A stretch of DNA of 64,000 bases from Falsirhodobacter algicola (GTDB lineage Bacteria; Pseudomonadota; Alphaproteobacteria; Rhodobacterales; Rhodobacteraceae), in assembly GCF_018279165.1 (NCBI RefSeq), contig NZ_CP047289.1, forward strand, positions 248,001 to 312,000, written 5' to 3'. The notes under the pieces are model-generated. The model was not told the origin of the DNA, did no database searches, and saw only the letters and a program-made list of their open reading frames with translations. Positions 7,180 to 56,006 of the stretch are shown here, piece by piece; the stretch's first letter is position 1; each line of letters begins with the position of its first letter. The position numbers and the translations under genes are program-made.

Positions 7180-7258
7180 GCGTGGATACTCCCGTGAAAG
7201 CTGAATCAAGCTGCGATTCGCCAATGCGAAAACGCGGCATCACGGGACTCGGGATATA

Positions 7259-7279: not shown

Positions 7280-7330
7280 AACCGGCCCGGGATGCGATGG
7301 ACCGGTGGAGGCCGGCCGTGGGACTTCGGA

Positions 7331-7753: not shown

Positions 7754-7823
7754 GCGGGTCACGGCCTTCGGATGCTGACGCGCCTATCTAGAAGCAAGCC
7801 GCCCGTCCCGCAACCCCAAAGCC

Positions 7824-8033
7824 TCAACCCTGTCGCAGGGTTTCGGCCATGAGGCGCGCGAGGCGGGCCGATTCAGGCCGTCCCTCGGCGGAAAAGGAAG
7901 CGAGCCGCGCGGCAAGGGACGCACGGGCGGGTCCCGGAAGATCCCGCATCGCAAACAAAAGCACATCCACCGCAGCCCGTCGGACATCGATGGCGGTTCG
8001 TTCCAGATAAATGATCCGTTCCTCGGGTGACAT
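7824..8033 (-). CDS. Small hypothetical protein, 69 aa
   Basis: Starts MSPEERIIYLERTAIDVRR, is predicted largely helical, and ends with a stretch rich in Ala, Arg and Leu. No domain is recognised. The ATG at 8033 has AAGGGC upstream at workable spacing. It lies on the minus strand between the HlyD gene and secG. It has the high third-position GC expected of a coding frame, but as a short orphan it remains unproven. Confidence 0.55.
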   Translation of the reverse strand: MSPEERIIYLERTAIDVRRAAVDVLLFAMRDLPGPARASLAARLASFSAEGRPESARLARLMAETLRQG

Positions 8034-8086
8034 AACAGGCCCTTGCAACACACTTGGCCCTAGATAGGGCTGGCCCGGCACGAAGG

Positions 8087-9142: not shown

Positions 9143-9149
9143 GGATCGT

Positions 9150-10760
9150 TCACCCGTTGCTGGAAGGTTGCGCGCGGCGGGCCTGCATCCACAGCCAGCC
9201 CTGATGGACGGCCAGAACGGCAAGCGCGGCCCCCGCGACACATGCGATGAGGAAGAAGACGTCGTTATAGGCCATGACCGTGCTTTCGCGCGTCACCACC
9301 TGCGACAGGGTGGTGAGCGCCTGCGACTGCCGCGCGGCGGCCTCGGCCATCTGCCCGTTGTAGATCGCGGCATAGGTTTGCAGCCGCGCCGTCACCAGCG
9401 GATCGGCCTGCGACAGGCTGGCCTCCAATTCGGACAGATGGGCGTTCTGGCGAAAGCGGATCACCGTCTGGAACAGCGCCGAGCCTGCGATCCCGCCCAG
9501 CCGCTGCGTCGTCAGGAACACGATCACGAAGCTGAGGATATAGAGCGGCCCGCGCCGCAGCGCCGTCATCAGCCCCGAGGCCATGGCCGCCGGCAGGAAG
9601 ATCGCGCTGGCAAAGGCGATCAGCCCTTGGCTGAACATCATCTGCGCCGGGCGCGTCAGGCTGGTGGTGTGGGAATCGATCAGCGCCCCCACCACGATCA
9701 TGATCAACGCGGCGGAATGGATCGCGGCCTCGCGCCCCGGTTTCAGGATCACGGCACTGACGAGCCCGCCCAGGATCGTGACGGCGACGATCATCCAGAA
9801 CATGCCCTGCATCTGCTGGTTCTGCAGGCCGAGCGCGATATAGAAGCCCGGCGCCCCCGATGTCTGTTCGGCCAGCACGATGCGGAACACGATCAGCGCC
9901 CCCGTCAGTTGCAGGATGGCCGGAGAGGCGAGCCAGCGCACGTCGATCAGCGGGTCCTTGCGGTGCAGCTCGATCGTGGCGGCGATCACCAGCGTGACGA
10001 TCGCCAGCGCCACAAGCGTGCCGAGCCATGGGGTGTCGAACCACCAATGGCTGGTGCCCACCGTCAGCACGACGGCCAGCGCCCCCATCCCGATCGCGAT
10101 CAGCGGAAAGCTGATGAGGTCCGCGCGCTCGATCACCTTCTGGCGGGGCACCGGCGTGAGCGGCAGCAGCAGTACCACCGCAAATCCCAGCAGCGCCAGC
10201 GCCAGATCCAGCAGGTTCAACTGCTGCAACCCGCCCAGATCCAACAGATGCGGCGCCAGCACCCGCGACAGGGGCGTGCCGAGCGAGATGCCCGTCAGCG
10301 CCAGCGACAACCCCACCGACAGCTTGCGCGCCGCGGGAAACGGCTCCAGCATGTAGAGGAACGCAAGGGTGGACATCGGCGCGGCGGCAAGCCCGCTCAT
10401 GAAACGCACGGCGATGCCCGAATGCAGATCCGTGACCGCGAGGTTCAGGAGCGAGGCCAGCACGAAGGCCGTCAGCGCCACCTGCGCGAACAGGCGCAGA
10501 CCGAATTGCGTGCGGATCTTGATGAGCGCCAGCGTGACCGAGGCCGAGGGCGCCATATAGGCCGCGATGAGCCACAGCGCCTCTTGCTGCGTGGCGCCGA
10601 TCTCCCCCTGAACTTGGGTGATGTTGCTGCTCAGAAGGCTCATCCCGAGCCCCTGCGAGATGCCGAGGAGGAACGAGGCGAAGATATAGCACAGCGCCCG
10701 CGGCACCGGCATGACGAACAGGCCCGGCGCGGCGGGCGGGGGGGCGGCGGCGTCGCTCAT
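9150..10760 (-). CDS. MFS multidrug exporter, DHA2/EmrB type
   Basis: 536-residue membrane protein with about 14 hydrophobic segments, the length and layout of the drug:H+ antiporter-2 group. Near the N-terminus it reads LGISQGLGMSLLSSNITQVQ and EALWLIAAYMAPSA, the usual helix 1-2 region. Paired with an EmrA-like adaptor and a MarR regulator, it is expected to expel amphipathic toxic compounds; no specific substrate is evident. The start at 10760 is one base after the marR stop. Confidence 0.9.
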   Translation of the reverse strand: MSDAAAPPPAAPGLFVMPVPRALCYIFASFLLGISQGLGMSLLSSNITQVQGEIGATQQEALWLIAAYMAPSASVTLALIKIRTQFGLRLFAQVALTAFVLASLLNLAVTDLHSGIAVRFMSGLAAAPMSTLAFLYMLEPFPAARKLSVGLSLALTGISLGTPLSRVLAPHLLDLGGLQQLNLLDLALALLGFAVVLLLPLTPVPRQKVIERADLISFPLIAIGMGALAVVLTVGTSHWWFDTPWLGTLVALAIVTLVIAATIELHRKDPLIDVRWLASPAILQLTGALIVFRIVLAEQTSGAPGFYIALGLQNQQMQGMFWMIVAVTILGGLVSAVILKPGREAAIHSAALIMIVVGALIDSHTTSLTRPAQMMFSQGLIAFASAIFLPAAMASGLMTALRRGPLYILSFVIVFLTTQRLGGIAGSALFQTVIRFRQNAHLSELEASLSQADPLVTARLQTYAAIYNGQMAEAAARQSQALTTLSQVVTRESTVMAYNDVFFLIACVAGAALAVLAVHQGWLWMQARRAQPSSNG

Positions 10761-10761
10761 G

Positions 10762-11193
10762 TCAGCTTGGGGGCGCTGTGTTGGCCAGCACCCGTTCGAG
10801 GACGGCAGTGGCGCTTCGCAGATCGTCCTCGGGGATGCCGGCGAAGAATTCGGCCCGCAGCGTCGCGACGTAATCCAAAAGCGCCTGCGCATCCTTGCGG
10901 GCGGCGGGCGTCAGATGGATGCACCGGGTGCGCCGGTCGCCCGCACCTTCGCGCCGCTCGACCATGCCCGCCTTTACCAAGGCATCAACCAGCCCGACGA
11001 TGGAGGGCTGCTCCACCTCCAGCGCTTGGGCAAGCTGGGTTTGCGTCTGTCCGTCCTGCCGCGCCAGCGTCACCAAAAGGCGCGCGCGCGACAGGGTCAG
11101 GCCCTGTTCGCGGGCCCGAGCATCGAAGGCGGTCCGCAGCTTGCGGTTCACCTTCACGAGGTGGTCGAGAAAGGATTCTGCGGGGCTGGGCAT
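10762..11193 (-). CDS. MarR-family transcriptional regulator
   Basis: 143-residue winged-helix protein. The core reads LTLSRARLLVTLARQDGQTQTQLAQALEVEQPSIVGLVDALVKAGMVER followed by the wing GDRRTRCIHLTPAAR, typical of MarR. It is first in the efflux operon and so probably represses it. The start is ATG 11193. The 124-base gap to the divergent gene at 11318 contains the AT-rich stretch 11208-11232 with two TAAATG copies 19 bp apart, the likely promoter and operator area. Confidence 0.92.
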   Translation of the reverse strand: MPSPAESFLDHLVKVNRKLRTAFDARAREQGLTLSRARLLVTLARQDGQTQTQLAQALEVEQPSIVGLVDALVKAGMVERREGAGDRRTRCIHLTPAARKDAQALLDYVATLRAEFFAGIPEDDLRSATAVLERVLANTAPPS

Positions 11194-11317
11194 TGTCGGT
11201 AGGTGCCTAAATGTTATGATCCTATGTAAATGCGGGCGCGTCGTCCGTCAAGCGGTCCGGCGCGCTTGCGGAAGGCCGTTGCATCCCGCGCCGCAACGCG
11301 TAAGGGCGGGGTTTTCG

Positions 11318-11989
11318 ATGAAAGACATTGCGATGATTCCCAAGCCTGACCATCCCGAACGCCTCCGATCCCTGTGGGTGGCGGTGCGCTGCGCCGCCTG
11401 TGCGCTTTTGGCCGCCGCATGGGCGCTGAGCCTGCGCGCCCCGCTGCCCGTCGGGTGGGAGAACGGGCCGCTGGAATCGGCGCAGGTCGGGGTATTGCTG
11501 GCGGGGATGATCGCGGCACTGCTGCTGTGCCGCGTGGGGGAGGGGCCGTCTCGGCGCCTCTGGATCGCGGCCGCGATCCTCTGGGCGCTCCTTGCCGCGC
11601 GCGAGATGAGCTGGGGCGCGGTCTTTCTGGACCCCATTGCCATGACCGATCACGGGCCGAGCTTCTCGTCCTCCCAGCTTGCGTATCGGCCGGCGGTGAC
11701 GCCGGTGGTGGCGGCGCTGCTGCTGGGGGCGGTGATCGCCTTCGTCATGGCCGGGCCGCGCCGGATCTGGACGCGCGTACGCCAGACGCGGCGGCTGCCG
11801 CTGCTGGACGGGCTGGGCGTGGTCGCGGCGATGCTGCTCTCCACCGCCGCCGAACGTCATATGGGCCTCAGCCTCGGCGGTTGGCCCGGCGATCCGCAGA
11901 TCCTCGAGGAAGGGGTGGAGCTTGCGGCCTACGCCTTCCTTCTGTCGGCCCAGTTCCGCATCGCCGAAGGGCTGGCCTTGCCGGTCTGA
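11318..11989 (+). CDS. Multi-pass membrane protein of unknown function
   Basis: 223 residues with about five hydrophobic segments (near 22-42, 57-72, 80-98, 128-146 and 165-180). MKDIAMIPKPDHPERLR is a soluble N-tail. AAREMSWGAVFLDP in the middle is a distinctive, possibly conserved segment. I do not recognise the family. AAGGGCGGGG before the ATG at 11318 supports the start. Its TGA directly abuts the stop of the convergent choline-sulfatase gene (TGATCA), leaving no room for a terminator. Confidence 0.75.
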   Translation: MKDIAMIPKPDHPERLRSLWVAVRCAACALLAAAWALSLRAPLPVGWENGPLESAQVGVLLAGMIAALLLCRVGEGPSRRLWIAAAILWALLAAREMSWGAVFLDPIAMTDHGPSFSSSQLAYRPAVTPVVAALLLGAVIAFVMAGPRRIWTRVRQTRRLPLLDGLGVVAAMLLSTAAERHMGLSLGGWPGDPQILEEGVELAAYAFLLSAQFRIAEGLALPV

Positions 11990-13489
11990 TCACTCGCCTC
12001 GGGGGAAGCGTTTGCTTTCCTCGAGGATGTTCAGATCCATGTGGTTGCGCATGAACATCTCCGAGGCGTCGGGCATTGGCTGATGATCCCAAGGGCGGTA
12101 ATCGCCCTGCCGCAGCGCCTCGTAGACGACCCAGCGGCGGGCCTGACTTTCGCGCACCTCGGCGTCGAAGCGGGCAAGGTCCCAGCGGGCATCGGCCTCG
12201 GCGCGAAGCCGGGCCAGAACCTCGGCGGCGGCCGGATCGCCTGCGCGGTTCACCCGTTCGCCGGGATCGTCCTCCAGATCGTACAGTTGTTCAGGATCGA
12301 CGGCGCAGCGGATGTACTTCCACCGCCCCTCCCGCAGCGCGACGAGGGGGGCGATGCTGCCCTCGGCGGCGTATTCCATCGGCACCGCCGCGCGCGCCCC
12401 GCCCGCCGCCACCGGCAGCAGGCTGACCCCGTCCGTCCATGGCGCGATCTCGGTCATCGGGATACCAGCCAGATCGCAGAGCGTCGGCGCGATATCGAGG
12501 GTGGAGACCGGGACCTCCACCCGCCCGGTCTGGGGCAGGCCCGCGATCATCAGCGGCACGCGGGAGGAATTCTCGAAGAAGGACATCTTGAACCACATCC
12601 CCCGGTCGCCCAGCATGTCGCCGTGATCGGAGGTGAAGACGATCACCGCCTCCTGCCGCGTCGCGTCCAGCACATCGAGGATCTCGCCGATCTTGTCGTC
12701 AATATAGGAGATGCTGGCGAAATAGCCGCGCCGCGCCCGGCGCACCATGTCCTCGGTGATCGTGCTGGCGGTATGATCGAAGGAATCCATCAGCCGCTGG
12801 GAATGGGGGTCCATCTCCTCGTAGGGGATGGGGGCGGGCGGATCGAGTTCGGCGCAATCCTTGTAGAGATCCCAATATTTGCGCCGCGCGACGTAGGGAT
12901 CGTGGGGATGCGTGAAGCTGACGGTCAGGCACCACGGGCGCGGATCGGCGCCGCGCGACAGATCGTAGATCTTGCGGACGGCCTGATGGGCCACCGCATC
13001 GTCGTATTCGAGCTGGTTGGTGATCTCGGCCACGCCCGCCCCGCTGACGGAGCCGAGGTTGTGATACCACCAGTCGATCCGCTCGCCCGGTTTGCGGTAA
13101 TCGGGGGTCCAGCCGAAATCGGCGGGGTAGATGTCGGTCGTCAGACGTTCCTCCAGCCCATGCAACTGATCGGGGCCGACGAAATGCATCTTGCCTGACA
13201 GAGAGGTCTGATACCCCGCGCGGCGCAGATGATGGGCATAGGTCGGCACGCTGGAGGCGAATTCGGCAGCGTTGTCATACACCCCGGTGCGCGAGGGAAG
13301 CTGTCCCGACATGAAGCTGGCACGCGCCGGAGAGCAGAGCGGCGAGGCGGTATAGGCCGTCTCGAACCGCAGCGAGCGTTCGGCAAGGCGGCGCAGGTTC
13401 GGGGCGTGCAGGAAATCCGCCGGGCCGTCGCGGAACAGCGTTCCGGCGAGTTGATCGACCATCAGGATCAGGATGTTGGGGCGCGACAT
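11990..13489 (-). CDS. betC: Choline-sulfatase
   Basis: 499-residue type I sulfatase. MSRPNILILMVDQLAG holds the first metal-binding Asp. LCSPARASF carries the CxPxR motif whose Cys52 becomes formylglycine. VFTSDHGDMLGDRG is the second metal site. TDIYPADFGWTPDY and the C-terminal HMDLNILEESKRFPR are characteristic of choline-sulfatases rather than arylsulfatases. The enzyme releases choline and sulfate from choline-O-sulfate; choline can then feed glycine betaine synthesis. GGAGGA lies upstream of ATG 13489. No bet genes adjoin it here. Confidence 0.88.
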   Translation of the reverse strand: MSRPNILILMVDQLAGTLFRDGPADFLHAPNLRRLAERSLRFETAYTASPLCSPARASFMSGQLPSRTGVYDNAAEFASSVPTYAHHLRRAGYQTSLSGKMHFVGPDQLHGLEERLTTDIYPADFGWTPDYRKPGERIDWWYHNLGSVSGAGVAEITNQLEYDDAVAHQAVRKIYDLSRGADPRPWCLTVSFTHPHDPYVARRKYWDLYKDCAELDPPAPIPYEEMDPHSQRLMDSFDHTASTITEDMVRRARRGYFASISYIDDKIGEILDVLDATRQEAVIVFTSDHGDMLGDRGMWFKMSFFENSSRVPLMIAGLPQTGRVEVPVSTLDIAPTLCDLAGIPMTEIAPWTDGVSLLPVAAGGARAAVPMEYAAEGSIAPLVALREGRWKYIRCAVDPEQLYDLEDDPGERVNRAGDPAAAEVLARLRAEADARWDLARFDAEVRESQARRWVVYEALRQGDYRPWDHQPMPDASEMFMRNHMDLNILEESKRFPRGE

Positions 13490-35706: not shown

Positions 35707-35751
35707 CCGGGTCGTCCCGGAGTAAGAGCCGTAATGGAGAGGTCGTCCTCT
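35707..35751 (-). ncRNA. Guanidine-II riboswitch (mini-ykkC)
   Basis: On the minus strand two perfect hairpins each close on an ACGA tetraloop. P1 at 35751-35738 is AGAGG-ACGA-CCUCU; P2 at 35720-35707 is CCGGG-ACGA-CCCGG; a 17-base linker separates them. Paired ACGR-loop hairpins are the defining features of the guanidine-II class. P2 ends 11 bases before the GGAG of the SMR gene, so guanidine binding and loop-loop contact would control translation. There is no terminator between it and the gene. Confidence 0.9.
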
Positions 35752-35781
35752 GCCCCGGACCTTAGGCAAGGCACGCGCGGA

Positions 35782-44988: not shown

Positions 44989-45858
44989 CTAACCCTCCGC
45001 GCCCCGTTTTGCCAGTGCCTGTGCGATCAGATCCTCGAAGGCGGCCGCGCTGGCAAGGCCGGCGACCTCTTCGGCGGTGACCGTCACGCCCCAGCGGGCC
45101 ATGGCGGCATAGCGGGGCTGGCGATGGGCCAGCGCGCGGGCATAGGTCCAGCGGATGAAGGCGTCGGGATCGACGGCATCCTCGGCCCGGCCGGTTTCGG
45201 CCAGATAGGCCGTCCAGCACTCCGTCAGGAATTGCGGCTGGTAATACATCGGCTTCGGCGCACGGTCGAAGCGGCGGATCAACTCTTGCGTATGCGCCTC
45301 GGACCCCTTGATCCAGACCATCAGCAGGTTCGAGGAAAGCTCGGTCAGGATCGGATCGGCGGGATCCTCGGGGTCCACCACCTCGCAGATGGAGCCGCCG
45401 GAATCGCATACGAAATTGGAATAGCCGTAGATATCCTCGGCCCGGCGGATGAACTGCGTCGTGTCCAGCAGGGCCGACATCTCCGCCTTCATGTGCTGCG
45501 TCTGCCGATGGCGGTATTCGCCGATCGGCAGGCCGCCCCGCGCCGGATCGCCCGGTTTGCCCAGATAGGTGGACAGCGGGGCAAGGTTCTCGAACGTGAT
45601 GTTGGAGGCGATATAGACCGAATCCGTCATCAGGAGTTCGCGCAGGAAGGGGACCTTCATCGCCTCGCGCTTGAAGTTGTCGGCGATATGCTCGCCCATG
45701 TAGCGGGTGCCGATGCGGTAATCCACGCTGTAGTGGAACCAGCCGCCGCTGCCCCGCAGCAGGCTGGAGACATGGGTCTTGCCAAGGCCGGACATGCCGA
45801 AGAGCAGCACGCGCTTGCGGGGGTCGGCCTGCCATTCGGCGGGGCTGGGCAGGGGCAT
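44989..45858 (-). CDS. P-loop ATPase-like protein, unknown function
   Basis: 289 residues. GMSGLGKTHV at 21-30 is a clean Walker A after RKRVLLF. Downstream SVDYRIGTRYMGEHIADNFKREAM resembles a kinase-type acceptor region, and FVCDSGGSICEV may be the Walker B strand. Not related to any enzyme I can name. AAGGAGACC precedes ATG 45858. Its place 27 bases upstream of metA on the same strand suggests a shared transcript. Confidence 0.8.
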   Translation of the reverse strand: MPLPSPAEWQADPRKRVLLFGMSGLGKTHVSSLLRGSGGWFHYSVDYRIGTRYMGEHIADNFKREAMKVPFLRELLMTDSVYIASNITFENLAPLSTYLGKPGDPARGGLPIGEYRHRQTQHMKAEMSALLDTTQFIRRAEDIYGYSNFVCDSGGSICEVVDPEDPADPILTELSSNLLMVWIKGSEAHTQELIRRFDRAPKPMYYQPQFLTECWTAYLAETGRAEDAVDPDAFIRWTYARALAHRQPRYAAMARWGVTVTAEEVAGLASAAAFEDLIAQALAKRGAEG

Positions 45859-45884
45859 CGCGGTCTCCTTCGCGCGTGGGTCGG

Positions 45885-46124
45885 TCAGATCCCGATCCAA
45901 TGGGCGACGGTGGCCGGGCTGGGCAGCGGCCCCAGCGCCATCGCCGCCAGCGTCAGCGCCGTCGTGAAGGCCCAGAGCAGGATCAGCACCGTCATGCGCG
46001 ACGCCTCGTTCCCGCTGATGCGGAAGACCGGGATCGGCATGGGGCCAAGCCAGACGGCCCCCATCAGGATGGTGTATTCGGCCGTGCCCAGCCAGCGGGC
46101 ACTGCGGCGCAGGAAGTCGAGCAT
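45885..46124 (-). CDS. Small membrane protein, 79 aa
   Basis: Two hydrophobic helices (about 12-30 and 42-65) after MLDFLRRSARWLG. No domain recognised. It lies 26 bases upstream of the P-loop gene on the same strand, so it may be first in the metA transcript. A longer start at 46163 is possible but adds a Cys/Pro-rich tail without support. Confidence 0.6.
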   Translation of the reverse strand: MLDFLRRSARWLGTAEYTILMGAVWLGPMPIPVFRISGNEASRMTVLILLWAFTTALTLAAMALGPLPSPATVAHWIGI

Positions 46125-46221
46125 GTCAGGATCCGGCTTGGAGTTGCAGGGCGCGCATACCATGCACGCCCCGCGTCACGCAAGATTTTCCAAAGCCCGG
46201 GGCCGCGATGCGGTGCCCTTT

Positions 46222-47976
46222 TCAGGACGCGGCCACCAGATGCCCATCCCCGACATTGCGCAGCATCACCCGCTGCGGACCGGCCCCGACGGGGTGGACC
46301 GGGCTTGGAACCTCGCCCGACAGGCGCGGGGAGGGGGCGCGGATGCGGCCGGGTTCGGGCACCGGCACCGCCGCCATCAGCCGCTTGGTATAGGGATGGC
46401 ACGGCGCACCGAAGATCTGCGCCCGCGTCCCCATCTCCACGATCTGGCCCATATACATCACCCCGATCCGGTCGGAGATATTCTCCACCACCGCCATGTC
46501 GTGGCTGATGAAGAGGTAAGCGATCCCGAATTCACGTTTCAGCGCGTTCAAGAGATCGAGGACCCGCGCCTGCACCGACACATCCAGCGCCGAGACGCTT
46601 TCATCCGCCACGATCAGCCGCGGTTGCAGCGCCAGCGCCCGCGCGATGCAGATGCGCTGCCGCTGACCGCCGGAGAATTCGTGCGGAAAACGATCGAGCT
46701 GGTCGCGCGTCAGCCCCACCCGTTCGAAGAGGTCGGCCGTTTTCGCGCGCCGCTCCTCGCGGGTGCCGATCCCGTGGATGACCAGCGGTTCGGCCACCAG
46801 ATCGCCCACCCGCATCCGCGGATCGAGCGCGGCCATCGGGTCCTGAAACACGATCTGCACATCCCGGCGCATGGCCTTCATCGCCGCGGCATCGAGGCCG
46901 CCCAGCGTATGGCCCGCCACCTCGATCCGGCCCTGATGCGGCACCAGCCCCGTCAGCGCCTTGGCGATGGTGGATTTGCCGCAGCCGCTTTCCCCGACGA
47001 GGGAGAACGTCTCCCCCGCATGGATGTCGAAGCTGACCCCTTCGACCGCATGCACGCGGTGGGTGACCTGCGAAAGAATGCCGCCGCGGATGTCGAAGCG
47101 CACCGTCACGTCGCGCAGACGGGCCACCGGCTCTGCGTCCGGGCGGGCGGCGGGGGCGCCGCTGCCATCGCCCATGCGGGGCACGGCGGCCAGAAGATCG
47201 CGGGTATATTCCTCGCGCGGGGAGGCGAAGATGCGCTCGATGGGGCCGGCCTCCACGGCGCGGCCGCCCTTCATCACGATCACGCGCTGCGCCATCTCGG
47301 CCACCACACCCAGATCGTGGGTGATGAGGATGATCGCGGTGCCCATCTCGCGTTGCAGATCGCGCAGCAGATCCAGCACCTCGCGCTGCACGGTCACATC
47401 GAGCGCGGTCGTCGGCTCGTCGGCGATCAGCACGTCGGGGCGCAGCGCCAGCGCCATGGCGATCATCACCCGCTGGCGCATGCCGCCCGACAATTCGTGC
47501 GGATATTGGCGCATGCGCCGCTCCGCCTCGGAGATGCGGACCCGCCGCAGCGCCTCCAGCGCGCGGGCCTGCGCCTCGCGTTTGGAGATCGGTTCATGCG
47601 CGCGGATCGCTTCGGTCAGTTGCAGGCCGATCGTCAGGATCGGGTTCAGCGAGGTCATCGGCTCTTGGAAGATCATCGCGATGCGGTTGCCGCGGATTGC
47701 GCGCATCCGGCCTTCGGGCAGGGCGCTCAGATCCGCGCCGTCGAAGCGGATCGCACCCGCGCTGACCCGCAGCGCCGGCGGGGGCAGCAGCCCCATGATT
47801 GCCAGCGAGGTGAGCGATTTTCCCGACCCGCTTTCCCCCGCGATGGCGATGGTTTCCCCGCGCGCCAGCGTGAAGCTCAGATCGCTGACCAGCGCCCGCT
47901 CGCGCCCCTCGGCGCGGACCGAGATGGTCAGCCCCTCCACGCTGAGGACCGGTGCCCCGTCATCCACCCCCGTCAT
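46222..47976 (-). CDS. Peptide/amide ABC importer ATPase, two nucleotide-binding domains fused (DppD-DppF)
   Basis: 584 residues. Domain 1: Walker A GESGSGKS, signature LSGGMRQR, Walker B LIADEPTTALD. Domain 2 from about 285: GESGCGKS, FSGGQRQR, LIVADESVSALD. Each half has the C-terminal oligopeptide-transporter tail (HPYTKRLMAAVP in the second). One protein replaces the usual DppD plus DppF. It is the last gene of the amide operon and overlaps the amidase stop (ATGA). Confidence 0.93.
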   Translation of the reverse strand: MTGVDDGAPVLSVEGLTISVRAEGRERALVSDLSFTLARGETIAIAGESGSGKSLTSLAIMGLLPPPALRVSAGAIRFDGADLSALPEGRMRAIRGNRIAMIFQEPMTSLNPILTIGLQLTEAIRAHEPISKREAQARALEALRRVRISEAERRMRQYPHELSGGMRQRVMIAMALALRPDVLIADEPTTALDVTVQREVLDLLRDLQREMGTAIILITHDLGVVAEMAQRVIVMKGGRAVEAGPIERIFASPREEYTRDLLAAVPRMGDGSGAPAARPDAEPVARLRDVTVRFDIRGGILSQVTHRVHAVEGVSFDIHAGETFSLVGESGCGKSTIAKALTGLVPHQGRIEVAGHTLGGLDAAAMKAMRRDVQIVFQDPMAALDPRMRVGDLVAEPLVIHGIGTREERRAKTADLFERVGLTRDQLDRFPHEFSGGQRQRICIARALALQPRLIVADESVSALDVSVQARVLDLLNALKREFGIAYLFISHDMAVVENISDRIGVMYMGQIVEMGTRAQIFGAPCHPYTKRLMAAVPVPEPGRIRAPSPRLSGEVPSPVHPVGAGPQRVMLRNVGDGHLVAAS

Positions 47977-48932
47977 TCGAACACGTTTCGCGGGAAGTAG
48001 AAGCTGACCACCCAGTTCGGCATGTCCACGATTTCCGAAATGCGCAGATCGCCGCAGGTGGAGACGAGCATATAGGCATCGACCGCCGACATTCCGCGCG
48101 TGCGGCACAGAAGATCGATCATCCCCGCGACCGCATCGCGCGCCCCCGACATGAGGTCGGGCCCGATGCCGGTCGTCACCTCGTACCCGGCCGTATCCAG
48201 ATGGCGCGTGACGGGGCCGGGCGTGGTGAAGCGCGGGAATTTCAGCGGCTCGTTGCGGATCAGATCCAGCGTCAGGACGCAGTTCATCGGGCTTTCGATG
48301 GCCGTGCCGCACACCTCGCCATCGCCCTGCGCGGCATGGGTATCCCCGACCGAGAAGAGCGCCCCCGCCACCTCGACCGGCAGATAGAGCACGGTGCCCG
48401 CAGCCAGATCGCGGATGTCGAGATTGCCGCCCACGCGGCGGGGCGGAACGATGGAATGCAGGCCCGCCTCGGCCGGGGCGACCCCGATCGTGCCGCAGAA
48501 CGGCTTCAACGCGACCTTCCCCTCGGTCCCCCACAGCGCCTTGTCGGGCGCGGCGGCGTCGTATTTCCAGATGGTTAGCGCTGGATCCTTGAACTGATCG
48601 GCCAGCAGCCCGAAACCGGGGATGTTCGCCGTCCAGCCCCATGCCGAACCGTCCTGTTCGCGCGGGGTGAAGCTGTCGATCGTCACCTTCAGCACATCGC
48701 CCGGCATCGCCCCTTCGACATGGATCGGCCCCGAGACGGGATTGATCTTGCCGAAATCGAGGGCCGTCACATCCGCCACCGTGGAGGACGGCCCAAGCTG
48801 CCCGGCCGAACTGTCGTGGCAGTGGAATTCAATGGTCGATCCGGGGGCCACCGTTCTGGCCGGGACAAGCGAGTTGTCCCAGCCGAAATGGTGCTGTGCG
48901 CCGTGGATCGTGTAATCGCAGGCTTTGCACAT
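47973..48932 (-). CDS. Acetamidase/formamidase family protein
   Basis: 319 residues of the FmdA/AmdA family. HHFGWDNSLVPARTVAPGSTIEF at the start, PFCGTIGVAP and VSVGDTHAAQGDGEVCG-like segments (here SVGDTHAAQGDGE) are conserved, and the C-terminus has MLVSTCGDLRISEIVD. It hydrolyses short amides to ammonia and an acid in the cytoplasm. Its place between the binding protein and ATPase genes of an importer suggests it acts on the imported compound. Confidence 0.93.
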   Translation of the reverse strand: MCKACDYTIHGAQHHFGWDNSLVPARTVAPGSTIEFHCHDSSAGQLGPSSTVADVTALDFGKINPVSGPIHVEGAMPGDVLKVTIDSFTPREQDGSAWGWTANIPGFGLLADQFKDPALTIWKYDAAAPDKALWGTEGKVALKPFCGTIGVAPAEAGLHSIVPPRRVGGNLDIRDLAAGTVLYLPVEVAGALFSVGDTHAAQGDGEVCGTAIESPMNCVLTLDLIRNEPLKFPRFTTPGPVTRHLDTAGYEVTTGIGPDLMSGARDAVAGMIDLLCRTRGMSAVDAYMLVSTCGDLRISEIVDMPNWVVSFYFPRNVFE

Positions 48933-48938
48933 GCGTGT

Positions 48939-50585
48939 TCACTCCGTGACGTAGACGTAATCGTAGTTCACCGGGATGGAGACCGGATCGACGTAGAGCG
49001 CATCCGCGCCGCCCATCCGGGCCGACTTCATGGTGTAGCGGTTTTCGTTGAAGACGGGGACCCAAGGGGCGTCTTCCATCACCTTCATGTAGACATCGGA
49101 CCACTTTTGCAGGCGTTCGTCCTGACGGGCGGGGTCGGTGATGGAATCGGCCTCGGCCGCCATCGCGTCCAGATCGGGGTTGCAGTACCACGACCAGTTC
49201 CAGCCGCCTTCGACCGCGCCCGCACACCCAAGGATCGGCCCGTAGAAGTTGGACGGATCGGGGAAATCGGCGATCCATGCCATGCCGCCCGACCAGATCA
49301 TCGGAGCCGTGTCCGGTGTGCCGCCCGCCTCGATGACATTGGCCTGCGCCAGCGCCCGGATCTCGGCCCGCACGCCGATCGCCGAAAGATCCTGCTGGAT
49401 CGCCTGCGCGATGCGCGGGTTCGGATCGGTGTTCATGACATAGAGTTCGGTGTCGAAACCGTCCGGCAGACCGGCCTCGGCCAGCATCTCCTTGGCCTTT
49501 TCGGGATCGAAGGGATAGCCGTCGTAATCCTTGGTATAGCCGGGCATGGAGGGCGGAAGCAGCTGGTTCGCGGGCGTGGCGCGCCCGTTGATCATCTGCA
49601 CGATGCGATCCTTGTTGATCGCCATGTTGATCGCCTGCCGCACCTCCACATCGTCGAAGGGCGGCATGTTCACGTTCAGGGTGATGTAGCCGGTATGCAG
49701 CTGCCCGCCCGTGACCACGCGCGCGGCTTCGTCGGGATTGCTCATCACCTCGTTGAATTTCGCGGGCGGGATGCCGTCGCCGGGCACGTCCACCTCGCCC
49801 TTTTGCAGGCGCAGCAGGGCCACGATCGGTTCCTGCCCGACTTCGAAGGTGATGCTGTCAAGATAGGGCACGCCGCTGCGCCAGTAATCGGCGTTCTTGC
49901 GGAAGACGAGCTTCTGGCCGATCGTCCAATCCTCCAGCGCGAAGGCGCCGGTGCCGACGGGATGCTTGCCGAAATCGCTGCCATATTCCTCCACCGCCTC
50001 CTTCGGCACGATCGAGGCGAAGTTCAGCGCCATCACATGCAGGAAGGTGGCATCGGGGCGCGACAGTTCGATCCGAACGGTGCGGGGATCGACGACGCTG
50101 ACCCCTTCGAGGCCGCTGGCCGATCCGTCCGCCACCGCGTCATAGCCCTTGATCGAGCCGAAGAAGCCCGCGCCCGGCGATTGGGTGGCCGGGTCCGTCA
50201 CCCGGTCGAGCGAGTATTTCACGTCATCGGCCGTCATCTCGCGGCCATTGTGGAAACGCACCCCCGTGCGCAGCGTGAAGGTATAGACCGTGCCGTCTTC
50301 GGAAATCTCGTAGCTTTCCGCCAGACCGGGGCGCAATTCGGTCGTGCCGGGCACATAATCCATCAGCCCGTCGAAGACCGATTTGATCATGGACCAGTTC
50401 TGCCAGTCATAGCCGATGGCCGGGTCCAGCGTTGCGACATCGTCCTTGTAGGTCACGATGATGTCGCCGCCCTCCTGCGCGTTGGGATCGGGCTGATAGT
50501 CCTGCGCAGCGGCAAGGCCCGCCGGGCCGAGACCGAGGGACAGCGACAGGGCGCTGGTGGCGAGGATGTTCTTCATCAGGCTCAT
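48939..50585 (-). CDS. Peptide/amide ABC importer periplasmic binding protein (DppA family)
   Basis: 548-residue family 5 solute-binding protein. The signal peptide MSLMKNILATSALSLSLGLG ends near AAAQ. Inside are RPGLAESYEISEDGTVYTFTLRTGVRFHNG, the family signature, and KHPVGTGAFALEDW. It is expected to capture a short peptide or an amide-bearing compound for the permeases at 50656-52463. The amidase gene follows after 6 bases. Confidence 0.93.
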   Translation of the reverse strand: MSLMKNILATSALSLSLGLGPAGLAAAQDYQPDPNAQEGGDIIVTYKDDVATLDPAIGYDWQNWSMIKSVFDGLMDYVPGTTELRPGLAESYEISEDGTVYTFTLRTGVRFHNGREMTADDVKYSLDRVTDPATQSPGAGFFGSIKGYDAVADGSASGLEGVSVVDPRTVRIELSRPDATFLHVMALNFASIVPKEAVEEYGSDFGKHPVGTGAFALEDWTIGQKLVFRKNADYWRSGVPYLDSITFEVGQEPIVALLRLQKGEVDVPGDGIPPAKFNEVMSNPDEAARVVTGGQLHTGYITLNVNMPPFDDVEVRQAINMAINKDRIVQMINGRATPANQLLPPSMPGYTKDYDGYPFDPEKAKEMLAEAGLPDGFDTELYVMNTDPNPRIAQAIQQDLSAIGVRAEIRALAQANVIEAGGTPDTAPMIWSGGMAWIADFPDPSNFYGPILGCAGAVEGGWNWSWYCNPDLDAMAAEADSITDPARQDERLQKWSDVYMKVMEDAPWVPVFNENRYTMKSARMGGADALYVDPVSIPVNYDYVYVTE

Positions 50586-50655
50586 TTGGGATATACTCCA
50601 GCTGTTGGACCGTGTTTCCGTCTGTCCCCGGTTGGTCCGGGGTCCGGTGTTGCGA

Positions 50656-51576
50656 TCAGCGCAGTTTGATGCGCGGATCGATGAAGGGGGTGACGAGATC
50701 GGCCAGCAGATTGCCGAGCACGATCGCGCAGGCCGATACGAGCGTGACGCCCATGATGATCGGAATGTCCACGCGCTGAATGGCCTGCCATGCCAGCTGT
50801 CCGATGCCGGGCCAGCCGAAGACGCTTTCCACCACGACGATGCCGGACATGAAGATGCCGATGTCGATCCCGATCATGGCGATGATCGGCAGGATCGCAT
50901 TGGGCATGGCGTGCAGCGCCAGAACCCGCGCGCGCCCCAGCCCCTTGGCCCGCGCCGTGCGGATATAGTCCGAGCGCAGCACGTCGATCATCGAGGACCG
51001 CATCATCCGGCTGTACCAGCCCGACCCCATGATCCCGAGCGTCAGCGCCGGCAGCACCAGATGGGACAGCCCGCCATAGCCGCCGATCGGGAACCAGCCC
51101 AGCCGGACCGCGAAGACATAGAGCAGCAGCAGCCCCACCACGAATTGCGGCGCCGACACCGCCACGAAGGAGGTGATCATCAGCGACTGATCGAGCGTTC
51201 CGCCGCGCCGGATCGCCGCGATGATGCCCAGCGTCAGGCCAAGGGCCAGTTCGGCCGCGATGGCCCCGAGCATCAGCAGAAGCGTCGCCGGAAGCCGCGC
51301 CGTGATGAGCGAGGCGACCTCGGTCTTTTGCAAGTAGCTGCGGCCCATGTCGCCTTGGAGCAGCCCCATCAGATAGCGCCCGTACTGCACCACGAAGGGC
51401 TGATCGAGGCCAAGCTGATGGCGGATGTTTGCCACCGTTTCGGGCGTGGCCGAACGGCCCGCGATCTGGCGCACCGGATCGGCGGGCAGCACATAGAGCA
51501 GCAGAAAGGTGATGAAGGACACGCCCAGCAGGATCAAGGCAGCCTGCACCAGACGGCGGAAGAGATAGGCCAGCAT
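50656..51576 (-). CDS. Peptide/amide ABC importer permease (DppB family)
   Basis: 306 residues. MLAYLFRRLVQAALILLGVSFITFLLL, the DppB first helix, then ADPVRQIAG and the EAA loop RTARAKGLGRARVLALHAMPNAILP. The start shares one base with the upstream permease stop (TGATG). Confidence 0.93.
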   Translation of the reverse strand: MLAYLFRRLVQAALILLGVSFITFLLLYVLPADPVRQIAGRSATPETVANIRHQLGLDQPFVVQYGRYLMGLLQGDMGRSYLQKTEVASLITARLPATLLLMLGAIAAELALGLTLGIIAAIRRGGTLDQSLMITSFVAVSAPQFVVGLLLLYVFAVRLGWFPIGGYGGLSHLVLPALTLGIMGSGWYSRMMRSSMIDVLRSDYIRTARAKGLGRARVLALHAMPNAILPIIAMIGIDIGIFMSGIVVVESVFGWPGIGQLAWQAIQRVDIPIIMGVTLVSACAIVLGNLLADLVTPFIDPRIKLR

Positions 51577-52463
51577 CAGTCACGCCCCCGCTGCGTCGGG
51601 TCGAGCACGTCGCGCAGCGCGTCGCCCACCAGATTGAAGGACAGCGCCAGCAGCAGGATCGCCGCGCCCGGAATGAAGACGAGCCATGGGGCCGCCTGGA
51701 AATAGGTCTGGTTCTCGAAGATGATGTTGCCCCAGCTGGGCGTCGGCGGCTGTACGCCCACACCGAGATAGGACAGCGTCGCCTCCAGCAGGACGGTGGT
51801 GGAAATGCCCAGCGTGCCCCAGACGATGATCATCGGCACCAGATGCGGCAGCACATGGCGCAGGAGGATGCGCAGGGTTCCGGCGCCCAGCGTCCGCTCG
51901 GCGGCGATGAACTCCCGCTCGGCCAAGGCCGAGGTTTCGGTATAGACGACGCGCGCGGTCTGCACCCAGTTCACCAGCGCGATCACCATCGCGACGATCC
52001 ACAGCGACGGCGTGAAGATCGCGGCGAGGCAGATCGCCAGCAGCAGCGCCGGAAAGGCCATCATCAGATCGGTGAAGCGCATCAGGACCGCGCCGACCCA
52101 GCCCCGGAAATAGCCCGCGGTGACGCCGATCAGCGTCCCGATCAGCAGCGCCAGCCCGTTCGCGACGACGCCGATGATCAGCGAGGTGCGCGCCCCATAA
52201 AGGATGCGCGAGAAGAGATCCCGGCCCAGCAGGTCGGTGCCCAGCCAGAACGTCCCGCCCGGCGGCATCGGCGCGCCTTCCAGCGTCAGGCCGTCGAACA
52301 TCTGTTCCTGCGGCGCGAAGGGCGCGATCAGCGGCGCGAAGATCGCCCCCAGCGTCACCACGGCGATGATCGCAAAGCCGAGCAGCGCCAGCTTGCGGCG
52401 CAGCAGGCGGCGCAGCGCGCCTTGCGGCCGTATCGGCACGTCAGCGATGGTCGCGTTGGTCAT
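51576..52463 (-). CDS. Peptide/amide ABC importer permease (DppC family)
   Basis: 295 residues. FWLGTDLLGRDLFSRILYGARTSL is the DppC signature before the permease core, and EREFIAAERTLGAGTLRILLRHVLPHLVP is the EAA loop. Two ATGs lie at 52466 and 52463; AAGGGGGGC fits the second better. It overlaps the ANTAR gene 3' end by 23 bases. Confidence 0.92.
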   Translation of the reverse strand: MTNATIADVPIRPQGALRRLLRRKLALLGFAIIAVVTLGAIFAPLIAPFAPQEQMFDGLTLEGAPMPPGGTFWLGTDLLGRDLFSRILYGARTSLIIGVVANGLALLIGTLIGVTAGYFRGWVGAVLMRFTDLMMAFPALLLAICLAAIFTPSLWIVAMVIALVNWVQTARVVYTETSALAEREFIAAERTLGAGTLRILLRHVLPHLVPMIIVWGTLGISTTVLLEATLSYLGVGVQPPTPSWGNIIFENQTYFQAAPWLVFIPGAAILLLALSFNLVGDALRDVLDPTQRGRD

Positions 52464-53049
52464 CATGCCCCCCTTGTTCCGTGTGATTGGCCACGATGCG
52501 GCGCGCGGCATCCTCGAAGGTGACGCGCCACGCCATCGCCATCTGGCGCAGCTGGTCATAGGCCTGCGCCTCGTCCTTGCCGCGCGCGGCCAGCAGCGTG
52601 ACGGCCCGCACCACCGTCTGGCGTTCGTCGAGGCGGCGGCGCAGATCGGCGATCTCGGCCGAAAGGGTGCGGCGCGCCTCGAAGGCCATGCGCGCGATCA
52701 GCAGCGCCGAATAGACGCCGCCATCGCCGACCGGCTTCAGCAATTGCGCATGGGCGCCTGCTTCCAGCGACCATTCGATCCGGCCCGGCGCCTCGGACCC
52801 GATCAGCGCGATCATCGGCATCGGGCTGGCCCCGGCGGCCCATGGGAATTGCTCGTCATGGCCCTGATCGGCGTCGAAGAACACGAAATCGCCCGACAGC
52901 GCCTCGGGGGGCAGGTCCGGCCAGCAGTGGATCACGGTCAGGCCGATGGCGCGCAACTGCCGCTCCAGCGCCTGAACGGTGGGGTGCGGGCGGTGCAGGA
53001 TATAGGCGTGCGCGCCGCCGAGGTTCGGCATGGAGATCTTGCGCTTCAT
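52441..53049 (-). CDS. ANTAR-domain antitermination protein (AmiR-like)
   Basis: 202 residues: a pseudo-receiver domain (about 12-115, FVFFDADQGHDEQF lacking a clear phospho-Asp context), a coiled-coil (FEARRTLSAEIADLRRRLDERQ), then the three-helix ANTAR domain (VRAVTLLAARGKDEAQAYDQLRQMAMAWRVTFEDAARRIV). ANTAR proteins bind two-hairpin RNA motifs and prevent termination. It overlaps the AmiC-like gene by 4 bases (ATGA), as amiC and amiR are adjacent in Pseudomonas aeruginosa. A terminator in the operon leader is the likely target. Confidence 0.9.
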   Translation of the reverse strand: MKRKISMPNLGGAHAYILHRPHPTVQALERQLRAIGLTVIHCWPDLPPEALSGDFVFFDADQGHDEQFPWAAGASPMPMIALIGSEAPGRIEWSLEAGAHAQLLKPVGDGGVYSALLIARMAFEARRTLSAEIADLRRRLDERQTVVRAVTLLAARGKDEAQAYDQLRQMAMAWRVTFEDAARRIVANHTEQGGHDDQRDHR

Positions 53050-54152
53050 GACACCACCCTCAGCCGTGGGGGGCGGGGGACCGCCCCGCCGCGCCCATGC
53101 GCGAGATAGGGATCCCCGGCCACGGTGCCGACATCCTCGCGGATGGCGAAGGCGCCGCGTTCGTATTGCGCGATCCGCACGGGAAGGGCGGTGTGATGGG
53201 TGGCAAGGTCGATCCCCTCCGGGCCGCCCGGCGCCTCGGCCAAAAGGCGCGAGAGGCCCTGCGTCTCCGCCCCCTCATGCCCCGACAGAAGACGCGCCAA
53301 TCGGTGCACCGCCGACCATGCCGCCGCCTCGTGCGAAGAGCCGAAGCCCCGCGCCGCGCCCTCGGGCCAGCCGGGGGCCCCGCGGAAATAGGGGCCTGCG
53401 GCCACCAACCCCTCGGCGGCGGCGGGCAGGATGGCGGGCATCTCGCATTCGGTCAGGTTGCAGGACAGAATGGGGCAGGTTTCGGCATGGAAATAGGGGT
53501 CTTCCTCTCCAAGCCGGTGATAGGCGGCAAGGAAGGCGTATTGTGACGGGCCGATCAGGTTGTTCAGCACGAAATCGGGGCGCGTCGCCCGGATTTCGGC
53601 GATCATCCGGTCGATCTCCAGCGAGCCGAGTTGCAGATACCGCTCGCCCAGAACCTCGCCGCCGGCGGCGCAGATCACCTCGCGCGCAAGGCGGTTCATC
53701 TCCCACCCCCAGATGTAGTTCGAGCCGATCAGGAAGCTGCGCCGCCCCCGCCGCGCAAAGGCCCACCCGAGGAGCGGCAGCAGATGCTGGTTGGGGCAGC
53801 CATGGGTGTAGACGATGTGATCGGACGCCTCGAACCCCTCGTAGGGGATGGCGTACCAAAGGGTGCCGCCGAATTTCTCCAGCACCGGGATGACTTCCTT
53901 GCGGCTCCAGGAAGTGACGCAGCCGATGACATGGCGCGCGCCGCTGTCGCGCAGGATCTCTTCGCACAGGGGGGCATAGGCGTCGATATTGCCGCCGGGA
54001 TCACGCTCGATCGGAGCGAAGGTCAGCGGGATGGCGGGATCGGCGTTGATCTCGGCGATCGCGTTCAGCGCCCCGGTCCGGCACGCCTCGGAGATGAGGG
54101 CGTAGCTTCCCGAACGGGAATAGAGAAGGCCGAGTTCGATCCGTTTGTTCAT
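53046..54152 (-). CDS. AmiC-like amide sensor (periplasmic-binding-protein fold)
   Basis: 368 residues starting MNKRIELGLLYSRSGSYALI with no signal peptide, so it is a cytoplasmic member of the branched-chain/amide-urea binding family. FIGSNYIWGWEMNR-like (here LIGSNYIWGWEMNR) and VLNNLIGPSQYAFLAAYHRLG match AmiC/UrtA-type proteins. In P. aeruginosa AmiC sequesters AmiR until an amide binds. First gene of the operon; its ATG is 35 bases after the leader terminator. Confidence 0.9.
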   Translation of the reverse strand: MNKRIELGLLYSRSGSYALISEACRTGALNAIAEINADPAIPLTFAPIERDPGGNIDAYAPLCEEILRDSGARHVIGCVTSWSRKEVIPVLEKFGGTLWYAIPYEGFEASDHIVYTHGCPNQHLLPLLGWAFARRGRRSFLIGSNYIWGWEMNRLAREVICAAGGEVLGERYLQLGSLEIDRMIAEIRATRPDFVLNNLIGPSQYAFLAAYHRLGEEDPYFHAETCPILSCNLTECEMPAILPAAAEGLVAAGPYFRGAPGWPEGAARGFGSSHEAAAWSAVHRLARLLSGHEGAETQGLSRLLAEAPGGPEGIDLATHHTALPVRIAQYERGAFAIREDVGTVAGDPYLAHGRGGAVPRPPRLRVVS

Positions 54153-54186
54153 CGCCACATCCGCAGTTTGCCGGGGGCCGGAACGC

Positions 54187-54234
54187 AAAACGCCTCGCCG
54201 ACATGCCGCGATAGCGCGGTGTCAGGCGAGGCGT
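54187..54234 (-). terminator. Leader terminator (candidate attenuator) before the amide operon
   Basis: On the minus strand ACGCCTCGCC pairs with GGCGAGGCGT, continued by TGAC/GTC-type and CCGCG/CGCGG inner stems with small bulges, and the 3' arm runs into TTTT. It ends 35 bases before the AmiC-like start, inside the operon's own leader, so it should stop transcription unless relieved by the ANTAR protein. I could not identify the paired hexaloop hairpins of an ANTAR site by eye. Confidence 0.75.
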
Positions 54235-54392
54235 GAATGCCGTTCGGAAATATCCCGATATGCGTTCAGGCTGGCAGATGGGACGCAGGGCCACAAGGCA
54301 CCGGGGGGCAATCGGCCTATGTTCTTAGGGCGATGCCCGCATTTTGCAGGCCTCTGCCTATCCCTTGGGCGGAATGTGAACGTCGGCGCAGC

Positions 54393-54416
54393 AAAAAGCC
54401 CGCAAGGATGCGGGCT
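54393..54416 (-). terminator. Intrinsic terminator after guaA
   Basis: A perfect 8-bp stem (AGCCCGCA/TGCGGGCT) with a 4-base loop followed by TTTT on the minus strand, 27 bases past the guaA stop. The bases from here to 54235 should therefore hold the amide operon promoter and leader; no clear -35/-10 pair is seen. Confidence 0.88.
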
Positions 54417-54443
54417 TCAGCAGGTCCGGATACGGGCCGTGGG

Positions 54444-56006
54444 TCATTCCCACTCGATCGTGCCGGGCGGTTTGGACGTGATGTCATAGGTCACGCGGTT
54501 GATGCCCTGCACCTCGTTGATGATGCGGGTCGCCGTCTCGCCGAGGAAATCGTGGCTGAACGGGTAATAGTCCGCCGTCATGCCGTCCACGCTCGTGACC
54601 GCGCGCAGGGCGCAGGCGAAATCGTAGGTGCGCCCGTCGCCCATCACGCCCACGGTGCGGACGGGAAGGATGGCGACGAAGGCCTGCCAGATCTCGTCGT
54701 AGAGGCCGTGCTTGCGGATCTGGTCGATATAGACGGCGTCGGCCTTGCGCAGGATCTCCAGCTTTTCGCGGGTGATCTCTCCGGGGCAGCGGATCGCAAG
54801 GCCGGGGCCGGGGAAGGGGTGACGGCCGATGAAGCTGTCGGGAAGGCCCAGTTCGCGGCCAAGGGCGCGCACCTCGTCCTTGAACAGCTCGCGCAGCGGT
54901 TCCACCAACTTCAGGCCCATCTTTTCGGGCAGCCCGCCGACATTGTGGTGCGATTTGATCGTGACCGACGGCCCCCCCGAGAAGGAGACCGATTCGATCA
55001 CGTCGGGATAGAGCGTCCCCTGCGCAAGGAAGGTCGCGCCGCCCACTTCGGCCGCGTGCTTCTGGAACACGTCGATGAACAGCTTGCCGATGATCTTGCG
55101 CTTGGTTTCCGGGTCCGACTGACCCTCCAGCTGGCCAAGGAACAGCTCGCTTTCGTCGGCATGGATCAGCGGCATGTTGTAATGGTCGCGGAACATGGTC
55201 ACGACCTGCTCCGCCTCGCCCTGCCGCAGCAGGCCGTGATCGACGAAGACGCAGGTCAGCTGATCACCGATCGCTTCGTGGATCAGCACCGCCGCGACCG
55301 AGGAATCGACGCCGCCCGACAGGCCGCAGATCACCTTCTGATCGCCGACCTGTTCGCGGATGCGGCGGATCGCCTCTTCGCGGTAGGCGCCCATCGTCCA
55401 GTCGCCCGAGAAGCCGGCCAGCTTCACGAAATTCTCGTAGAGTTTCGCACCGCGCGGGGTGTGGTGCACCTCGGGGTGGAACTGCACGGCGTAGAAGTTG
55501 CGCGACACGTCCGCCGTGATGGCGAAGGGCGCATTGGGCGAGGTGCCGTGCACGGTGAAGCCCGGCGCGATCGCCGAGACGTGGTCGCCATGGCTCATCC
55601 ACACCTGCTCGCGCCCGTCGGCATCGCCGAACCAGCCTTCCAGCAGGGGAATGCGCTCCTCGCTCGGGGTGACGAAGGCGCGGCCGAATTCGGCGGTGCC
55701 GTGGCCGCGTTCCACCTTGCCGCCAAGGCAATGCATCATGACCTGCTGGCCGTAGCAGATGCCCAGCATCGGCACGCCGAGGTCGAACACGCCCTTCGGC
55801 GGCATCGGCGCCCCTTCGGCAAAGACCGAGGACGGCCCGCCCGACAGGATCACCGCCTTGGGCGCGAACTCCGCAAGGAAGGCGTCGTCCACCTTGTTGA
55901 ACGGGTGAATTTCGCAATAGACGTTCAGTTCGCGCAGGCGGCGCGCGATCAGCTGCGTCACCTGCGAACCGAAGTCGATGATGAGAAGGCGGTCATGCTG
56001 GGTCAT
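54444..56006 (-). CDS. guaA: GMP synthase (glutamine-hydrolysing)
   Basis: 520 residues. The N-terminal amidotransferase has LGICYGQQ (nucleophile Cys) and QFHPEVHH. The ATP-PPase domain has [10 protein letters not shown]. The C-terminal dimerisation domain ends [14 protein letters not shown]. It makes GMP from XMP; guaB (IMP dehydrogenase) is 5 kb away on the other strand. It overlaps the upstream DUF6477 gene by 14 bases. Confidence 0.98.

Follow-up and report, generated by a model that had tools for sequence, protein, structure and literature searches.

The published target motif of the ANTAR proteins consists of two hexaloops, each with A at position 1 (A1) and G at position 4 (G4), and the mutual exclusion of the hairpin P2 and a terminator is the arrangement described by Ramesh et al. 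for such targets (PMC3369931). According to Walshe et al. (PMC8934654), the ANTAR domains of EutV contact one hexaloop at a time, but termination is prevented only if both hexaloops are contacted. Among the peptide importers, DppA of E. coli holds the carboxyl end of a dipeptide through R383 and its amino end through D436 (precursor numbers; PMC12136057). These systems are compared here with a seven-gene operon (46222-54152, minus strand) and its leader in a 64,000-nucleotide stretch of Falsirhodobacter algicola (assembly GCF_018279165.1, contig NZ_CP047289.1, positions 248,001 to 312,000), hereafter the window. The genes encode, in the order of transcription, an AmiC-type sensor, an AmiR/ANTAR antiterminator, DppC-like and DppB-like permeases, a binding protein, an FmdA amidase and a fused double ATPase. 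Judged from its sequence, the locus probably serves to scavenge nitrogen from small amides, L-amino-acid amides being the likeliest, and regulates itself by AmiR antitermination at the leader.

Leaders were taken for 81 loci, i.e. 80 loci fetched with the ANTAR protein and the window itself (loci are labelled L and genomes G below), and the shuffle test was performed on the same 170-base stretches with dinucleotide shuffles. The pattern GGC-A(N5)-GCC, which was picked after the leaders had been viewed, is present as P2 in all the 81 leaders as compared to 2.2 of 81 in the shuffles, with A1 in each of the 33 distinct loops; when A1 is not required, P2 is found in 80 of 81, and L060 was then re-picked with A1 required. 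A P2 with a T-rich end in register occurs in 78 leaders vs 0.36 in the shuffles. In 78 of the 81 folds the 3' arm of P2 lies inside the 5' arm of the terminator and pairs with its downstream arm; P2 and the terminator are thus mutually exclusive, because they have these bases in common. The terminator helix is 95.2% paired with a covariation score of 0.463 in 36 selected leaders of the 81 (set A5). The shuffles average 0.248 and none of the 500 reaches the observed score; the slid versions give 0.06-0.18. The fold of the window leader is better than all of its 200 shuffles (z -3.9). The preliminary description of the locus had proposed control by RNA antitermination without describing a leader, and a leader with P2 and an overlapping terminator fits that proposal and supports antitermination control, as far as sequence can tell.

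A covariance model of the leader (R1) finds one strong match in the genome of the window, the amiC leader itself (68.8 bits). The second and third matches (24.9 and 19.7 bits) were considered as other AmiR targets and rejected, since they resemble, by eye, plain terminators after genes; the fourth scores 16.5 bits. The model was built with an RNAalifold structure that pairs the 3' arm of P1, the hairpin upstream of P2, with the 5' arm of P2; this pairing would give two-base loops in most sequences and was taken as an artefact. A simple terminator scan does not list the leader terminator, we think on account of the bulges in its long stem, and the only two Rfam matches in the window at the gathering score are a tRNA and a Guanidine-II riboswitch, with none at the amiC leader. 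In a weighted scan of the 81 leaders the candidate promoter of the window ends 26 bases before P2, and many relatives carry a clearer match (TTGAC..., 16-17 bases, TA...T) 20-35 bases before P2. No paper on the leader of these operons turned up in the open literature, subscription papers being mostly outside that search. The 81 leaders mark the place where AmiR most likely acts and tie a known family of amide-scavenging operons to its switch.

The proteins of the regulatory pair agree with such a role. The best solved relative of the window AmiC is AmiC of the amidase operon (1PEA, E-value 3.3e-42), and that of the ANTAR protein, the only ANTAR match in the genome, is AmiR (1QO0). The features tested for an AmiC/AmiR system are present, i.e. 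the AmiR pseudo-receiver and ANTAR domains above the Pfam cut-offs and an adjacent AmiC gene. Signal-like N-termini were seen in 12 of 49 AmiC relatives and not in the other 37, with the window AmiC among those devoid of one. These labels were given by eye, longer starts are possible in some and hydrophobicity alone does not separate the two sets; in the 37 without a signal-like N-terminus, 2-10 residues separate the nearest start codon from the first strand (17 in one protein). One of the 37, in L120, has no ANTAR gene seen beside it. In the maximum-likelihood tree of the 49 proteins the 12 labelled as exported form one side of a branch (support 100/97), in keeping with the earlier expectation that the AmiC-like protein would not cluster with exported binding proteins. 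The window AmiC falls into a set of 22 AmiCs (support 100/99), every one of which belongs to an FmdA-linked operon; 21 of these operons have the Dpp-type order and one (L112) has a swapped transporter. The window AmiC is thus probably cytosolic, going by its N-terminus and its place in the tree.

Conservation of the operon was examined in the best 80 of 195 loci fetched via the ANTAR protein, a set of named genomes that is therefore chosen by the ANTAR gene. The complete seven-gene order and strand are kept in 76 of the 80 (by record titles, Rhodobacter relatives and rhizobia), as the preliminary description had anticipated for relatives, and the remaining four (L034, L053, L066 and L068) reach contig ends; in L104, counted within the 76, the ATPase gene is cut at a contig end. 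The conserved gene order is not due to chance. A second survey was based on FmdA (E-value 1e-60 or lower) in 198 genomes of the same family. It identified an orthologue in 29 genomes, of which 20 have the AmiC/AmiR pair and 7 show no match to it nearby; in the other 2 a contig end truncates the locus. The pair lies on the same contig as FmdA in 19 of the 20, G091 being split over two contigs, and FmdA of the window is 76-94% identical to 18 orthologues. In the seven genomes without the pair (L171-L177, FmdA 60-69% identical) no AmiC, AmiR, DppA, DppB or DppC match was found within the surrounding 17-18 kb. The survey therefore indicates that AmiC/AmiR accompany the operon wherever both sides are visible. 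The distribution is patchy, and the operon is absent from G150, the sole other genome of the genus among the 198.

Variants of the operon were also observed in individual genomes. L181 of G007 (5406-12730) carries a copy with a partial AmiC match and split DppA and ATPase matches, which is probably decayed. In L044, L056, L099, L102 and L159, all from Rhodobacter relatives, the ATPase gene of the operon is directly followed by another group of genes for permeases and ATPases.

The probable cargo is indicated by the binding protein, which matches PDB entry 8UPI with an E-value of 4e-284 and is 77% identical to it in the Foldseek alignment. The title of the entry, obtained through Foldseek, reads 'Structure of a periplasmic peptide binding protein from Mesorhizobium sp. 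AP09 bound to aminoserine'. In Mesorhizobium loci the operon encodes a binding protein with up to 98.8% identity to 8UPI. AlphaFold models the window protein poorly (mean predicted local distance difference test score, pLDDT, 62.8), and this model served only for the Foldseek search that named 8UPI; the relation rests on sequence. According to Frkic et al. (2024, Biochemistry), the 8UPI protein reportedly binds L-amino-acid amides and has about 610 homologues in FmdA-linked ABC operons. The amine anchor of DppA is kept, with D440 of the window protein aligned to D408 (precursor D436) and invariant in 20 of 20 sequences; the carboxylate anchor R355 (precursor R383) falls in a four-residue alignment gap. 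The kept Asp and the missing Arg fit a ligand whose amino group is free and which has no carboxylate, and L-amino-acid amides are the likely cargo on these grounds. The earlier proposal of an amide larger than acetamide would agree with the 8UPI orthologue and with both anchor positions.

It is conceivable that the transporter is simply a dipeptide or oligopeptide importer to which the amidase became attached by chance, as Pfam and NCBIfam place it among the Dpp/Opp/Gsi/Nik families and the fused ATPase is above several general cut-offs. This is, however, barely credible, since the binding protein (DppA) and both the permeases (DppB, DppC) miss all the listed NCBIfam equivalog cut-offs, the Arg for the carboxyl end of a dipeptide falls in the gap, and FmdA and AmiC/AmiR stay with the transporter in all of the ANTAR-fetched loci that are not cut. 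A more serious alternative is a short-chain amide operon, in which acetamide or formamide brought in by the Dpp-type importer would be the true substrate. FmdA does belong to the FmdA_AmdA family (PF03069). Moreover, PMC13209695 describes an 'acetamidase operon' on the Klebsiella plasmid pKOS9-W1 that contains amiC, amiR and four ABC genes and by that description is apparently the same operon; lysates showed acetamidase activity and the single acetamidase gene of the strain lies in it. FmdA of Klebsiella from another plasmid is 68% identical to that of the window. On the other hand, the window FmdA scores 128 against a cut-off of 500 bits for the formamidase equivalog NF045496, the orthologue of the binding protein was solved with 'aminoserine', acetamide would be an odd cargo for a binding protein of the Dpp type that has an amine anchor, and urea-type importers are found with FmdA in other, separate operons. 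Acetamide or formamide as the true substrate is thus considered unlikely, and L-amino-acid amides are preferred.

The antitermination cycle below is taken from the AmiC-AmiR family, while the genes, their order and the bases common to P2 and the terminator are shown by sequence. Without amide, AmiC would hold AmiR and most transcripts would end near 54187. An amide entering the cell would bind AmiC and free AmiR, which may then clamp P2 on the nascent RNA, so that the terminator is blocked and RNA polymerase continues. Read-through would yield more sensor, AmiR, importer and amidase. The exported binding protein would pass amides that carry a free amino group on to the Dpp-type importer, and the imported amides would presumably be hydrolysed by FmdA to an amino acid and ammonia.

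Several observations weigh against amide scavenging under AmiR antitermination. Position 4 of the P2 loop is G in only 1 of the 81 leaders (1 of 33 distinct loops). Among the residues that touch RNA in EutV, as given in PMC8934654, R142, R168 and M172 are kept in all the 81 ANTAR proteins and Y164 is Y or F; K149, however, is replaced by V or I in all 81 and R177 by S or T in 80, position 175 has R in 46 proteins and Q in 35, and N173 has mostly become A or S. The same study reports that a triple alanine change of N173, R175 and R177 in EutV abolished binding, and the altered contact residues slightly lowered our confidence in the mechanism, which stays high. One of the five covariation measures, the number of pairs changed on both sides, is no better than in the shuffles (five of nine pairs vs 4.1, with 146 of 500 shuffles as high). 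The promoter of the window is weak and a stricter scan finds none in 45800-54500. The leader model at E-values of 1e-5 or lower finds 8 of the 198 genomes, missing 12 of the 20 with the operon under strict filters; all the 8 carry the operon, so that the model is specific. As to the cargo, the assignment draws on the title of an orthologue's structure, two anchor residues and the reported findings of Frkic et al., and the acetamidase activity in Klebsiella, where the operon is seemingly homologous, suggests that acetamide may also be a substrate.

The loss of G4, the changes of several EutV contacts and the upstream hairpin, which escaped detection in some leaders and in most others has a loop of another size than six, would also be compatible with a reading in which the hairpin before AmiC were an ordinary terminator or attenuator, with AmiR acting elsewhere or by another route; further, no such leader was found before AmiC in L117 and L158. 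This is nevertheless improbable, as the overlap of P2 and the terminator is kept while the rest of the leader varies, the same type of P2 precedes an apparent classical amiE operon (L162), a second such leader stands before the transporter in L112, and the second and third matches of the model in the window genome look like plain terminators after genes. Antitermination by AmiR at P2 is therefore retained as the favoured reading.

The leaders depart from the dual-hexaloop motif and look simpler than this textbook form. Besides the near absence of G at position 4, position 5 of the P2 loop is a purine in 81 of 81; neither preference is seen in control words GGC-N6-GCC from other parts of the loci, which have G at position 4 in 1848 of 5036. 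A P1-like hairpin just upstream of P2 was detected by script in 64 of the 81 leaders vs 9.7% of 4860 control positions. Its loop has six bases in 11 of the 64 best folds, or in as many as 15 when one pair is opened in each of four tetraloops. The script did not find the hairpin in the other 17 leaders. Fourteen leaders are devoid of P1 by eye, and L049, L055 and L057, which also fail the script, have by eye three-pair stems below its threshold. The best promoter match ends 13-16 bases before P2 in 8 of the 14, the median being 30 in the other 67 leaders; matches so close leave no space for P1 in those 8, if the promoters are right. The P1-less leaders occupy separate places in the tree (L048/L051; L099; L096 with L112 and L161), L112 and L161 having been checked individually.

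The scan was extended to further loci with A1 required. The loop has G4 in L114, L118, L160 and the Klebsiella locus L157, and is without it in L113, L115, L161, L162, L170 and L179. The scan gave no P2-terminator leader before AmiC in L117 and L158, mentioned above, and in the AmiR-like loci L163-L169 no candidate was convincing. A link between the loss of G4 and the loss of Lys149, which contacts G4 in EutV, was considered and rejected, since Val is found at that position with G4 loops in L114, L118 and L160, and L162 combines Lys with A4.

In view of these patterns it is tentatively proposed, with chances a little short of even, that the FmdA-linked AmiR acts on a single hexaloop, for which A1, usually without G4, suffices; that the upstream hairpin is an accessory lacking in several lineages; and that at least one genome has an AmiR regulon of two transcripts, one with a P1-bearing and one with a P1-less leader. 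The P1-less leaders are natural cases for testing the requirement for two hexaloops stated by Walshe et al. (PMC8934654), and, if the proposal is true, these leaders are natural test objects for a single-hexaloop model of ANTAR action. The single-hexaloop leader may be the part of the present analysis that is new.

The proposed two-transcript case is that of G037, where another Dpp-type set, with a binding protein only 27% identical, stands in place of the usual transporter of the operon. The locus (L112, 2769-9450) reads AmiC, AmiR and FmdA, followed by the foreign Dpp-type transporter in the order DF-A-B-C. The covariance model places a second leader at L112 8283-8388, between FmdA and the swapped-in transporter. 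This leader carries P1, P2 (GGC-ATTCAA-GCC), a terminator and a TTGACC promoter match of its own; no P1 was found in the leader before AmiC of the same genome. The second leader is the best natural evidence for the leader as a movable AmiR target. In L178, FmdA precedes a similar foreign transporter set in the order A-C-B-DF.

The features of the operon and its leader are listed in the Table. The open reading frames and Pfam domains bear out the seven packed minus-strand genes of the preliminary description and the domains claimed for them. Its end at 54234 extends into the leader, the ATG of AmiC being at 54152, and the largest gap, put at 69 bases, measures 70; this gap precedes the binding-protein gene. 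The genes are separated by small overlaps (1-26 bases) and short gaps. The AmiR/ANTAR gene overlaps that of AmiC by 4 bases and that of the DppC-like permease by 26 (23 if the second ATG is used), the two permease genes overlap by 1 base, FmdA starts 6 bases after the binding-protein gene and the fused ATPase gene overlaps FmdA by 4 bases. In the 70-base gap (50586-50655, minus strand) an inverted repeat rich in GC (CCCCGG...CCGGGG) was seen by eye; it has no T run and may be a hairpin that stabilises the mRNA. Elsewhere in the window, the Guanidine-II riboswitch (mini-ykkC) lies at 35707-35754 on the minus strand (Rfam, 38.7 bits vs a cut-off of 32).

Table. Features of the amide operon and its leader, with positions in the window
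Feature	Position	Strand	Basis
Candidate promoter, TTGTGG (54291-54296), 17-base spacer, CAGCCT (54268-54273)	54268-54296	minus	Weighted scan
P1 hairpin, TCGGG-ATATT-TCCGA	54244-54258	minus	Script search; 5 loop bases in best fold found
P2 hairpin, GGC-ATTCAC-GCC, ANTAR-type hexaloop	54230-54241	minus	GGC-A(N5)-GCC pattern
Putative intrinsic terminator, stem 54191-54233 then TTTT	54187-54233	minus	Folding, overlap with P2, covariation
AmiC-type amide sensor, 368 amino acids	53046-54152	minus	PF13433/PF13458 (Peripla_BP_5/6), 1PEA relationship, N-terminus, tree
AmiR-type antiterminator, 202 amino acids	52441-53049	minus	AmiR_N PF21332 and ANTAR PF03861; 1QO0 AmiR
DppC/OppC-type permease	51576-52466	minus	PF00528 (BPD_transp_1) and PF12911 (OppC_N)
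DppB-type permease	50656-51576	minus	PF00528 and PF19300 (N-terminal domain)
Binding protein (SBP_bac_5), PDB 8UPI orthologue	48939-50585	minus	Pfam, sequence match, residue D440
FmdA/AmdA-family amidase, 319 amino acids	47973-48932	minus	PF03069 (FmdA_AmdA)
Fused DppD-DppF ATPase, 584 amino acids	46222-47976	minus	Two ABC_tran stretches

Comparison with the known systems does not sustain the novelty hinted at earlier for the gene arrangement, since 8UPI covers the binding protein of this operon in Mesorhizobium, the seven genes occur on Klebsiella plasmids and the regulators come first in other operons of FmdA and an importer. The same seven genes in the same order are found on the Klebsiella pneumoniae plasmid NZ_OP378655.1 (L157 8998-16830, corresponding to 67982-75814), with DppA 66% and FmdA 68% identical to those of the window; the Klebsiella operon differs in its location on a conjugative plasmid and in an AmiC that is only 38.7% identical. 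Its leader has the loop AATGAA, with G at position 4, and a GGT/GCC stem, and no P1 was found in it. The 8.1-kb Klebsiella stretch is at least 80% covered in 735 of 72,556 plasmid records. A match of any extent occurs in 1141 records, 758 of which are from Klebsiella and 706 of which are typed as conjugative. This wide spread on Klebsiella plasmids makes the question of the cargo worth settling. In L157 the operon is close to a fec iron-citrate cluster and an IS5-type element.

The 8UPI system is similar in its orthologous binding protein, and the order of FmdA and the ABC genes in the Mesorhizobium loci is that of the window. The Pseudomonas-type amiE-amiC-amiR arrangement resembles the operon in the AmiC/AmiR pair and, in L162, in a P2-terminator leader with the loop AACAAG; there an AmiE-like amidase comes first, followed by two genes and then by AmiC and AmiR (by eye, AmiR by PF21332), and no Dpp-type gene matched within the 14 kb of this locus. 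FmdA operons with a urea-type importer (L113, L117, L118 and L160) likewise begin with AmiC and AmiR and contain FmdA, 32-33% identical in L113, L117 and L118; they differ in branched-chain/urea-type ABC genes (annotated in L160) in place of the Dpp-type genes. The regulators are thus first also in the FmdA-plus-importer operons examined elsewhere. With the ANTAR dual-hexaloop motif of EutV the leaders share an A1 hexaloop, a 3' arm common to the terminator and some of the contact residues; they differ in the near absence of G4 (a single leader of the 81) and in an upstream hairpin that is rarely a hexaloop or is not found. The gene set is already known and widely shared, and the leader analysis is the addition made here.

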